Shown piece after piece: positions 2,407-6,925 of a stretch of DNA of 6,925 nt. How positions within the stretch are numbered: the first letter of the stretch is position 1; each line of letters starts with the position of its first letter. The translations under genes were made by a program, and so were the position numbers. A model generated the notes under the pieces. That model saw nothing but the letters and a program-made list of their open reading frames with translations, had not been told where the DNA came from and made no database searches. The stretch comes from Candidatus Omnitrophota bacterium (GTDB lineage: Bacteria; Omnitrophota; JACPQZ01): NCBI GenBank assembly GCA_016190205.1, contig JACPQZ010000054.1, positions 1 to 6,925 on the forward strand, given 5' to 3'.

Positions 2407-3216
2407 GTGAGACGCGGAATCCTGACGGGACTTTTCGCACTTTTGTTCGTGCTCATCTACCGGGGCACCTGGGTGTGGCTTTACCAGCGGTGGACCGCGC
2501 CCGACACCTACTACAGCCACGGGTTCCTGATCGCCCCTGTCTCGCTGTATCTCATTTGGCGCAAACGCGCACTGCTTGTGCCGGCGGTGTCGGGTGGAGC
2601 GGGCGCGGGATATTTCCTCATCGCAGGCGGGCTCCTTATTCATCTCATGAGCCGCTGGGCGGGGGTGGGGTTCGTGTCTGGTCTCACGCTCGTTCCCGTT
2701 CTTTTGGGCTTCGTGCACGTTTTCTATGGAAGTCGTGCCCTGCGCGAGCTATTCTTTCCCATCGCCTTTCTCATGGCCATGGTCCCTCTCCCGCTCGAGC
2801 TCATCGCAAGGTTGAGCTTTTCCCTTAAGATGTTGAGCACCGCCTGGGCGCTGGTGTGGCTCGGCGCAGCAGGGATCGGGGCCGTGCAGGAGGGAAGTTT
2901 CATCCGTATGAGTGAGGCAAGCATCCTGGTGGGAGATGTATGCAGCGGTCTTAGGTCCCTCATCGCGCTCCTTGCCCTGGGGGCGCTGGTCGCGTACTTT
3001 CTCAAGGTCTCCTGGTGGCGGAGGGCGGTCGTGTTCTTGTCGGCGGCTCCCGTTGCACTCCTGGTCAATACCGCCAGGATCGCCTTTCTCTGCTGGGTTG
3101 CGGAGGTGTACGGCGAGTCAGCCGCCGGCGGGATAGTGCATGATGTGTCGGGGGTCCTCATTTTTGCGTCGGCCTTCGTGCTTTTGAGTATGGTTCGGGA
3201 GGGTGTCGCCGGATGA
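2407..3216 (+). CDS. Exosortase (PEP-CTERM sorting transpeptidase, multi-pass membrane protein)
   Basis: A 269-residue, strongly hydrophobic protein with about seven or eight predicted membrane segments, as expected for the exosortase/archaeosortase family. Exosortases recognise the C-terminal PEP motif, membrane helix and basic tail of exported proteins, and are thought to cleave and transfer them. Signatures visible: DTYYSHGFLIAPVSLYLIW (33-51), ELFFPIAFLMAMVPLPLE (114-131), the catalytic Cys in DVCSGLRSL (177-185, Cys179), the conserved Arg in NTARIAF (221-227, Arg224) and the His in GGIVHDVSG (241-249, His245). All three proposed catalytic residues (Cys, Arg, His) are intact. It follows the deacetylase-like gene by 2 bp and overlaps epsI by 4 bp (ATGA), so they are translated together. 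The two PEP-CTERM proteins downstream are likely substrates. The Xrt subtype cannot be fixed without profile scores. Confidence 0.95.
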   Translation: MRRGILTGLFALLFVLIYRGTWVWLYQRWTAPDTYYSHGFLIAPVSLYLIWRKRALLVPAVSGGAGAGYFLIAGGLLIHLMSRWAGVGFVSGLTLVPVLLGFVHVFYGSRALRELFFPIAFLMAMVPLPLELIARLSFSLKMLSTAWALVWLGAAGIGAVQEGSFIRMSEASILVGDVCSGLRSLIALLALGALVAYFLKVSWWRRAVVFLSAAPVALLVNTARIAFLCWVAEVYGESAAGGIVHDVSGVLIFASAFVLLSMVREGVAG

Positions 3217-5043: not shown

Positions 5044-5793
5044 ATGCAACGATACTACCGTACCGTTGTGCTGGCGTTTCTCTTGTGCTGTGCCCTTTCA
5101 TTGCTCGTAGCGGTGAAGCTCACGCAGAGTTCTTCATTGCAGACCGGATTTGCTGCAGGTACCGGCGCCCAATGGTTTGAGGCGAGTCTTGGAGCAGTTT
5201 CCAAAGGCGGGGTTTTTTACTTCCCGCAGGCGCGTCTGGAGCTCGCGCTCCCCGGCGCTCCACTAGGTCAGCCTGCCGAAGGCCTTATATCGGACGAGGA
5301 GTCGGTTATCGAAGAGGCTGTAAAGGCCCAGGAGGGCGCAGCCGGAGAGGACTCGGATGGCGAGTTAAGTCCGGGACTCATGGCCCTCACCGGGGGCGGG
5401 GGAGTAGATGAGGCCTTTGGGATTGATGACGACAATAACCGCTTCTTTACGCCTACACTCATCGCGGCCGGGCTCATCGCGGGGGGAGGGGCGCTCGCGC
5501 TTCTATCTTCCGACTCAGGTGGTTCTTCCGCGAGCTCGAACTCCGGTTCTGTTTCCGAAGGGTTGACGGGCGGCGGGGACGACCCTATTGATGACGGCGG
5601 CGACAACGACGGCGGGGGAGGCGATGGGGGTGATGGCAATGGCGGCGGCGGCGCGGGCGGAGACGAAGACGGAGACAGACAACTGCCTCCCTCGACGCCG
5701 GAACCTTCAACGCTGGCCCTTTTGGGTATGGGTCTCGCCTGGCTGTTTAAGCGCCGCGCTTGCGTTGTGAGGCCTGGCGGCAGGTCTCGTTAA
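5044..5793 (+). CDS. PEP-CTERM protein, Gly/Asp-rich, with extra hydrophobic segment and C-terminal tail
   Basis: A 249-residue protein 35 bp behind the previous gene, with a strong Shine-Dalgarno AAGGAGA (5027-5033), so probably in the same sigma-54 transcript. Parts in order: an N-terminal hydrophobic segment (about 8-24) without a clear AxA cleavage site, so signal peptide or anchor; an acidic region (about 84-130); a second hydrophobic stretch LIAAGLIAGGGALALL (139-154); a Ser/Gly/Asp low-complexity linker (155-212); and a PEP-CTERM signal, TPEPSTLALL (218-227) with helix to about 235 and KRR (236-238). Eleven residues (ACVVRPGGRSR) follow the basic cluster, which is longer than usual. 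I recognise no enzymatic domain. The stop codon overlaps the stop of the convergent gspC-like gene. A structural or matrix role is a guess. Confidence 0.85.
   Translation: MQRYYRTVVLAFLLCCALSLLVAVKLTQSSSLQTGFAAGTGAQWFEASLGAVSKGGVFYFPQARLELALPGAPLGQPAEGLISDEESVIEEAVKAQEGAAGEDSDGELSPGLMALTGGGGVDEAFGIDDDNNRFFTPTLIAAGLIAGGGALALLSSDSGGSSASSNSGSVSEGLTGGGDDPIDDGGDNDGGGGDGGDGNGGGGAGGDEDGDRQLPPSTPEPSTLALLGMGLAWLFKRRACVVRPGGRSR
5581..5670 (+). repeat. GGC/GAC-rich low-complexity coding tract
   Basis: A run of GGC, GGG, GAC and GAT codons encodes a Gly/Asp linker (residues about 180-209) ahead of the PEP-CTERM signal. The imperfect repeats could vary in length by slippage without frameshift since they are codon-sized. 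Linkers of this kind usually span the periplasm or cell wall side before a sorting signal. Confidence 0.6.
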
Positions 5794-6596
5794 TTAAGGT
5801 TGTAAACGAAAGTCCTCGCGCTGCCGTTTCGATCGACATTTACTTCCACCTTAAACGCTGCGTCTGACCTTGCCTGTTGTACCAGCGTTTTGTAAAGGGC
5901 AGCTGCCTCCCTCGGCGATGTGATCTTGCGGTTATTGATCTTTTTGATCACATCAAACTGTTTGAATCCCGCCTGTGCTGCAAGACCTTTTTCTTCCAGA
6001 CCTATAATCTTTAAGCCTTGGATCCTGCCGTTTGCAAGCGCCGGCCTTAACTCAACCTCCTTGAGAACGGAATTTAAGTTTTTGTATTTTGCCATCACCG
6101 ATTTCTTGTTCACGATCCTTTTGCCACCCTCCGAAGTGATGCACGGAGAATCGAGCGAGTGATCCTGGGAGGGGTAAGTGATCTCCAGGATTTCCTGACT
6201 CCCGCTCGCTCGGGTCAGCACGACCTTGCCCAGCCCTATGCGATCCAAGATAGCGTCTCGGATCCTGTCCCCGGCCGCATACTCGGCTTCATATCCTGTT
6301 CCCTTATCCCGTATCAGCGCCAGAGACCCGTCGGGCTTATCCAGAACGGTTGCTACAAGTTCCAGGTTCAGCGGTTCGTCGGCACGGGCGGTCATGACGT
6401 CAGGCGGCTGGGAATCGATGGCGCGTTCCCGTTCCAGCGTTTGTCTTGCGGGTTCTGCCCCGGGCAGGGCGCGAACGGTATCCCCGGTGAATGTTTTTTC
6501 GGGGCGAACAGGACGGCTGAAGAGCTGTGCTAGCAACAACGCGTTTAAAGCCAAGACTCCTGTTATCACCACGATCGTGCAGAGTTTCATATTCAT
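5790..6596 (-). CDS. GspC-like type II secretion protein with PDZ domain
   Basis: A 268-residue protein with the GspC architecture: short cytosolic start, one membrane anchor (about 7-25), a Pro/Glu-rich linker, an HR-like domain (about 76-140; LNLELVATVLDK, SLALIRDKG, EYAAGDRI, ILDRIGLGKVVL) and a C-terminal PDZ domain (about 184-265; GLKIIGLEEKGLAAQAGFKQFDVIKKINN). GspC links the inner-membrane platform of the type II secretion system to the GspD secretin through the HR domain; PDZ can take part in substrate choice. No other gsp gene is in the window, so it is either a stray gspC or a specialised paralogue. Its ATG directly follows the TGA of the CFI-box gene (no gap), with GGGAG 9 nt upstream; an ATG two codons later is an alternative. 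Its stop overlaps that of the convergent PEP-CTERM gene. Confidence 0.85.
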   Translation of the reverse strand: MNMKLCTIVVITGVLALNALLLAQLFSRPVRPEKTFTGDTVRALPGAEPARQTLERERAIDSQPPDVMTARADEPLNLELVATVLDKPDGSLALIRDKGTGYEAEYAAGDRIRDAILDRIGLGKVVLTRASGSQEILEITYPSQDHSLDSPCITSEGGKRIVNKKSVMAKYKNLNSVLKEVELRPALANGRIQGLKIIGLEEKGLAAQAGFKQFDVIKKINNRKITSPREAAALYKTLVQQARSDAAFKVEVNVDRNGSARTFVYNLN

Positions 6597-6925
6597 TCAG
6601 CCCTTCTCCCTTACCAGTATTTCGCTGAGCGCGATCAGAGGTTTGAGCGCGGCTCTTACGATCCTCTTGATGTGTTCTTTGTCCCTGATGTAATCAGCAA
6701 AGGGCGGGGAATGCCTGTAGTAGAATCTGACAAAGGCGCTTCCCGGCCTGTTGGTCAGCAAATACTCATCCCTGAAGCGGGACAGTATCCTGACTTCGTC
6801 CGCCATGGGCGTTCCAAAGCTCGCGGTAGCGATGAAACAACTCGCTGCGCTTCCACCCCCGCCTCCGCCGCCGCCTCCGCCGCCGCCCAAATTGCCTCCA
6901 CCACCCTCTCCGCCCAGATCGAAAA
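6597..6925 (-). CDS. CFI-box-CTERM domain protein, C-terminal part (5' end outside window)
   Basis: The frame is open to the window edge; 109 complete codons are visible. A Gly-rich stretch including an uninterrupted run of 12 Gly leads into the CFI-box motif SCFIATASFG, then FRDEYLLTNRPGSAFVRFYY and SPPFADYI, a hydrophobic helix-prone end (IVRAALKPLIALSEIL) and the stop. NCBI names such ends 'CFI-box-CTERM'; they sit at the C-terminus of otherwise varied, often exported proteins after Gly-rich linkers, so a sorting or anchoring role is suspected but unproven. The single Cys and the Gly spacer recall Cys-containing C-terminal sorting signals such as Myxo-CTERM. A TTG at 6890 could start a short product, but the frame remains open upstream and continues the same Gly-rich composition, so a longer protein is more likely. 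It is translationally adjacent to the gspC-like gene. Confidence 0.8.
   Translation of the reverse strand, partial: FDLGGEGGGGNLGGGGGGGGGGGGSAASCFIATASFGTPMADEVRILSRFRDEYLLTNRPGSAFVRFYYRHSPPFADYIRDKEHIKRIVRAALKPLIALSEILVREKG
6852..6888 (-). repeat. Polyglycine-coding GGC/GGA/GGG tract
   Basis: GGC, GGA, GGG and GGT codons encode 12 consecutive Gly directly before the CFI-box, with another Gly-rich cluster (GGEGGGGN) further upstream on the same strand. This is a flexible spacer and a slippage-prone tract. Confidence 0.75.

Follow-up and report, generated by a model that had tools for sequence, protein, structure and literature searches.

A conserved gene pair encoding a CFI-box-CTERM protein and a GspC-like protein in Omnitrophota

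The stretch of DNA analysed here (the window, 6,925 bases) is the complete contig C44 (JACPQZ010000054.1) of a metagenome-assembled genome (MAG) from the phylum Omnitrophota (genome G000; 1.65 Mb, 92.8% complete). At its right end, on the minus strand, a gene for a protein with a C-terminal CFI-box, called the cargo gene below in line with its proposed role, directly precedes a gene for a protein with the layout of GspC of the type II secretion system (T2SS). The same pair recurs across the phylum. Its parts in the window are the following, with structural features taken in part from AlphaFold2 (AF2) models.

6597..6925, minus strand: 3' part of the CFI-box-CTERM cargo gene with 108 codons in view, the open reading frame being open to the contig edge and the 5' end missing; NF041770 E=2.8e-28
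6840..6923, minus strand: Gly-rich linker preceding the CFI-box, translation FDLGGEGGGGNLGGGGGGGGGGGGSAAS; relatives have similar linkers
6633..6839, minus strand: CFI-box domain, NF041770 positions 1-69, invariant Cys codon at 6837-6839, four AF2 helices
6594..6599, minus strand: TGA-ATG stop/start junction from the cargo gene to the GspC-like gene, read from the sequence; a stretch resembling a ribosome site, AGGGAG, lies ahead of it
5790..6596, minus strand: GspC-like gene, 268 aa, of the type termed GspC1 here, from NF041515 (1.4e-22), TIGR01713 (1.8e-6), the family profile A1 and the tree
6519..6590, minus strand: predicted membrane anchor at the N-terminus of the GspC-like protein, residues 3-26, from an AF2 helix and hydropathy
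6180..6365, minus strand: HR domain (secretin-binding type), residues about 78-139, from six AF2 beta-strands, alignment with GspC homologs and a profile match to 7oio
5793..6080, minus strand: PDZ domain, residues about 173-268, from GspC_delta (162-267), PDZ_2 below its cut-off and profile matches of PulC/OutC/EpsC type

As stated in the initial annotation, the two genes abut, with the TGA of the CFI gene at 6599-6597, the ATG of the GspC-like gene at 6596-6594 and 0 intergenic bases, as read from the sequence. The accompanying remark that no other type II secretion gene is in view is true but uninformative, as the window is an entire contig and the sequence 5' of the CFI gene lies off it. 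An attempt to link C44 with a T2SS contig from this MAG was given up, as the ends of the contigs examined share no 19-31-mers.

The visible part of the cargo is a CFI-box after a Gly-rich linker, as first described, and the match to NCBIfam NF041770 is C-terminal, covers all 69 model positions and reaches 97.5 bits (cut-off 40), as in known members of that family. Invariant positions across 62 CFI-box sequences hold Cys, Phe, Ala, Arg, Leu and Tyr, in the case of the Cys partly by selection, since these sequences were picked for a recognisable CFI-type motif and divergent boxes exist. The box is modelled by AF2 as four helices (predicted local distance difference test, pLDDT, 87.9), neither a sequence search nor a fold search of the PDB returned a relative, and a search for the CFI-box in the literature library used found no paper. 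CTERM sorting signals are short and consist of a motif, a transmembrane helix and a basic tail. The window box departs from this three-part layout, ending 80 residues past the Cys with no strong transmembrane segment (maximum 19-residue hydropathy 1.06), and thereby differs from most NF041770 members sampled in other phyla, which have both the helix and the basic tail.

The second protein has the GspC hallmarks, i.e. a single predicted N-terminal transmembrane anchor, an HR domain and a C-terminal PDZ domain, so that the anchored HR-PDZ layout read initially is confirmed by the modelled helix and strands together with profile matches. In the AF2 model the transmembrane helix spans residues 3-26 and the HR domain forms six beta-strands at 78-138 (pLDDT 70-86); the PDZ part is not modelled successfully (mean pLDDT 52.9), and PDZ_2 alone stays below its cut-off. 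The GspC1 family profile matches the GspC HR structure 7oio at 60-140 and the GspC PDZ domains of PulC (5hj1), OutC (6hcg) and EpsC type (2i4s/2i6v). With 80.8 bits to NF041515 (GspC_delta; E=1.4e-22, curated cut-off 150) and 27.8 bits to TIGR01713 (gspC; E=1.8e-6, curated cut-off 101.6), the window protein scores under both curated thresholds and is therefore named GspC-like, while still having the GspC layout. Pfam T2SSC is matched in the GspC proteins of relatives and not in that of the window. A search for a protease domain in the protein found none, and the suggestion that it might process the CFI tail is accordingly not borne out.

Compared to GspC, PulC, OutC and EpsC, GspC1 thus shares the order of anchor, HR and PDZ as well as the family profile matches to HR and PDZ structures, and several of its relatives adjoin GspD, GspE or GspF genes, as GspC does; it differs in its sub-threshold curated scores and in being paired with one cargo gene. 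A further difference concerns the GspC1 proteins of G239, G278, G341, G355 and G369, which stand alone and whose N-termini, judged by eye, resemble cleavable signal peptides instead of anchors; such proteins would be soluble periplasmic adaptors. HR-only proteins of LspC/PilP type, which adjoin secretins elsewhere in G000 and in relatives, have no PDZ domain, unlike GspC1.

Conservation of the pair was assessed by searching 384 Omnitrophota genomes with the CFI family and the GspC profile A1, where a strong GspC hit was defined as E<=1e-18, nearly all such hits covering HR and PDZ. CFI-box genes are present in 45 of the 384 genomes and strong GspC hits in 23, of which 20 are among those with CFI genes (Fisher p=4e-18). 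Every GspC1 gene with a visible flank is linked to a CFI gene (22/22), 17 directly and 5 within one gene or ~2 kb; a further four or five GspC1 genes, among them those of G162, G335, G227 and G275, lie at or near contig ends and were left out of the 22. On gene maps of 16 genomes the CFI gene and the GspC gene downstream of it share a strand and are separated by <=54 bases or overlap slightly (G000, G138, G249, G231, G355, G201, G239, G278, G281, G369, G196, G341, G254, G316, G229 and G379). In G381, first scored as CFI-negative, a divergent C-terminal half of a CFI-box (18.4 bits) overlaps the start of the GspC gene; one gene or 1-2 kb separates the two in G243, G193, G323 and G149, and G038 has the reversed order, with GspC first and a single gene separating it from the CFI gene.

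Viewed from the CFI side, the next gene is GspC for 15 of the 69 CFI genes examined at the strict threshold and for 17 when the divergent cases in G229 and G381 are included, compared to ~0.015 adjacent pairs expected under random placement. The neighbour count called for by the initial annotation is hence strongly positive in Omnitrophota. The direct pairs are spread over 10 GTDB families, and the independent NCBI model NF041515, built without reference to the pair, recovers the same genomes. This conservation across the phylum excludes chance as an explanation. Distances among CFI-boxes and among GspC1 proteins correlate (18 pairs, Mantel rho 0.62, p=0.0002), consistent with co-inheritance of the two. 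As a single query, the window GspC found no relatives among GTDB genome contigs and matched only two other genomes of 145, both matches lying beside CFI genes.

The position of the pair relative to T2SS genes varies among relatives: it stands alone, precedes T2SS genes as the sole visible PDZ-bearing GspC, or heads a cluster that holds a second GspC. The latter protein, GspC2, is encoded between GspD and GspE in G149, G249, G201 and G231. In the GspC tree GspC2 forms one clade (support 100/99) and GspC1 of the same four genomes a separate one (98/93), with long branches, that of the window included, which make deeper placement unsure. A full cluster is headed by the pair in G249 and G201, in the order CFI, GspC1, PilM-like, HR-only, secretin, GspC2, GspE and GspF, and the pair precedes GspE and GspF in G281, G196 and G341. 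In G138, G239, G278, G355, G254 and others, by comparison, the pair has no T2SS genes in view; it is followed in G138 and G239 by a TPR-containing protein of >1,300 aa, and G278 and G355 have large proteins at this position. The CFI gene can also lie directly downstream of a secretin gene (G151, G251, G268, G373 and G323).

These arrangements bear on a plain reading of the locus, namely that the window gene is the gspC of an ordinary type II operon with a substrate gene at its head, and nothing dedicated. The order CFI, GspC, GspE, GspF in G281 and G196 makes GspC1 the visible GspC of these loci, the upstream flank of the window pair lies beyond the contig end, and no PDZ-bearing GspC other than the one in the window was found in G000 by single-sequence or profile search. 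Yet four genomes hold GspC1 in addition to a core GspC2 of a separate clade, and other pairs have no T2SS gene in view, so that this explanation is improbable. The comparison with the core-operon gspC of the same genome, proposed at the outset, thus yields separate clades in four relatives and lacks its second member in G000. Secretion genes as such are present in the host genome, which encodes six secretins and several GspE/PilB/PilT ATPases. Its contig C63 contains a type IV filament or T2SS-like cluster with PilB/GspE, PilQ/GspD and GspK, in which an HR-only protein, recognised by sequence similarity and matched by no family model, adjoins one secretin.

Based on these data, we propose that GspC1, as a cargo-dedicated paralogue of the type II clamp, links surface proteins with a CFI tail to a secretin, a reading to which we assign a probability of about 0.5. 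The product of the first gene would be a large protein, located on the surface or extracellular, with the conserved helical CFI-box at its C-terminus, and that of the second the GspC paralogue dedicated to it. In GspC the HR domain binds the secretin N0 domain (PMC3169554), and the PDZ domain is needed only for a subset of substrates (PMC12369372). By analogy, the HR domain of GspC1 would dock on N0 and its PDZ domain would hold the cargo, which may then be passed to the type II machine, or a related type IV filament machine, and cross the outer membrane. How T2SS recognises its substrates is an open question, and a universal linear signal is not described for them in the literature (PMC12369372). 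A recognisable tail paired with a PDZ-bearing GspC offers 22 natural cognate pairs plus GspC2 controls from the same genomes, making substrate choice testable by in vitro swaps, and gives the CFI-box its first functional context.

Which part of the cargo GspC1 might hold is a separate matter. Paired CFI proteins vary in their C-terminal residues, which are hydrophobic in only 4 of 17. This makes a classical PDZ ligand unlikely, and recognition of the extreme C-terminus was rejected as the default for this reason; binding would instead use the folded box or another domain of the cargo. Paired cargos contain PKD, Ig or cadherin domains, BNR repeats with ZU5, FG-GAP or a glucoamylase domain. A serious, if less probable, alternative is that GspC1 recognises the beta-rich passenger (PKD/Ig/ZU5), with the box as a shared surface anchor or maturation domain. 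The many PKD, Ig and cadherin domains among paired cargos favour this alternative, as do the variable C-termini, which speak against end-recognition, and the published precedents: OutC PDZ contacts the Fn3 domain of PelI, and the EpsC PDZ dependence of VesB, a GlyGly-CTERM protein, resides in its Ig fold and not in the CTERM (PMC12369372). However, the passengers differ from cargo to cargo (PKD/Ig, BNR with ZU5, FG-GAP, glucoamylase) while the CFI-box is common to all of them, and similar domains, Ig and PKD included, occur on unpaired CFI proteins as well. Direct reading of the CFI-box by GspC1 is, for its part, a tentative idea. Equally speculative is the wider picture that could follow from it, in which the CFI-box would be a sequence-identifiable export tag bound by dedicated GspC paralogues, and T2SS cargo choice would be set cargo by cargo via swappable adaptors, some of them now soluble periplasmic HR-PDZ shuttles.

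Other C-terminal modules provide a frame for these ideas. GlyGly-CTERM with rhombosortase and MYXO-CTERM with myxosortase likewise place a C-terminal module on surface proteins, and MYXO-CTERM combines an invariant Cys with T2SS export (PMC11980579). The CFI-box is far longer and helical, and no cognate intramembrane protease was identified with the pair.

A number of observations weigh against a dedicated role of GspC1 in the export of CFI-tailed proteins. The N-terminus of the window cargo itself lies beyond the contig edge; profile A1 was seeded with CFI-neighbouring proteins (NF041515 was not); the 22 linked cases are related by descent and not independent; and 50 of the 69 CFI loci in the phylum have no GspC inside 3 kb. 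The box also occurs on zinc-ribbon proteins that look cytoplasmic (L158 9563-9928, L066 9386-10231), which suggests that it is not confined to exported proteins. In a second phylum (that of G388), where 97 of 395 genomes have a CFI-box, most boxes with a transmembrane helix and basic tail, distance bins around CFI genes at 40 sampled loci gave 0.032 T2SS or type IV pilus genes per kb at 0-3 kb vs 0.030 at 6-11 kb, with one CFI-GspC pair among the 40. In Desulfobulbus, T2SS operons with a CFI gene at their head encode a GspC that has no PDZ domain. Finally, ten CFI loci adjoin or lie within ~2 kb of exosortase genes, often with EpsI or other EPS genes, in six Omnitrophota of family f46 (L144, L146, L148, L152, L153 and L155) and four second-phylum genomes (L197, L200, L201 and L205).

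Since the second phylum shows no density gradient, the T2SS link is mostly specific to Omnitrophota, and the notion of CFI-boxes as general marks of T2SS cargo is not supported. The link is a speciality of one phylum, with scattered cases elsewhere, i.e. Desulfobulbus and G517 of the second phylum, where the order is CFI, GspC, GspD, GspE, GspF and the GspC ends in a PDZ-like stretch; it is not universal to the CFI-box.

Genes for an exosortase, for EpsI and for two PEP-CTERM proteins lie on the plus strand of the window, together with wecB and the gene of a 365-aa protein for which a family search gave no match. Two of these genes are listed as context for the pair.

2407..3216, plus strand: exosortase gene, PF09721 4.2e-59; no counterpart near other pair loci
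5044..5793, plus strand: PEP-CTERM protein gene, convergent with the pair, PF07589 5.1e-5; it and the GspC-like gene overlap at their 3' ends

Family matches confirm the genes for the exosortase, EpsI and the PEP-CTERM proteins, but these genes are convergent with the CFI-GspC pair, the exosortase at a distance of 3.4 kb. They bring up the alternative that the CFI-box is primarily a sorting signal, linked to exosortase and EPS or anchoring the protein in the membrane, with the GspC link as a lineage-specific side use. The ten exosortase-associated CFI loci and the window exosortase point in this direction, as does the transmembrane helix with basic tail that mostly follows the box outside Omnitrophota in the manner of a CTERM. 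The box of ~70 aa is helical, unlike short CTERM signals, and no exosortase is in view at the other CFI-GspC pair loci; a primary sorting role is therefore decidedly unlikely, and the tie of the pair to the exosortase/PEP-CTERM system suggested initially is not conserved. Coupling of CFI-tailed proteins to a secretin by GspC1 remains our preferred reading.

Several further observations concern CFI-box proteins in general. In family f46, CFI proteins are encoded directly after GspD, and the one scanned is a C25 peptidase. Some pilin-like proteins end in a CFI-box, among them a GspH in G380, an N_methyl match below cut-off in G238, one in G167 and one in a clostridial pilin operon, in or beside T2SS or type IV pilus operons (L054 1381-2073, L174 9285-9986, L169 9874-10802, L056 9371-10324). 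A ZU5-type HFS motif ~30 residues before the CFI Cys is present in 21 of 63 Omnitrophota CFI proteins vs ~0.7 expected (carriers include L031, L028, L098, L099, L108, L073 and L135). Bacterial surface proteins have been proposed to undergo ZU5 autoproteolysis (PMC3482391), and the motif is a possible separate cleavage site that might release the tail autoproteolytically. In L234 and L235 the CFI-family match lies in proteins of 600-662 aa whose C-terminus resembles an outer-membrane beta-barrel, so that the box would not be C-terminal there. Many CFI matches per genome, as in G243 (15) and in G472, G604 and G466 (at least 14 each), suggest expanded cargo families.

At the left contig edge, 3-209 on the plus strand and upstream of wecB, lies the end of another CFI-box-like protein, divergent in sequence (GTGGCALVMFFENPDAAPLKVLRGFRDR...; CFI-like part 33-158), with NF041770 E=1.9e-9, under the cut-off. 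In G162 (L130 5337-9655) an exosortase and EpsI follow directly after GspE and GspF of a T2SS cluster. Small PDZ proteins of 172-177 aa (L191 8740-9258, L192 4997-5530) are conserved in G038 and G278, at loci where no CFI-box was seen in the protein ends read; their genes sit between those of a ~700-aa protein and a lipoprotein-like protein of 782-784 aa.
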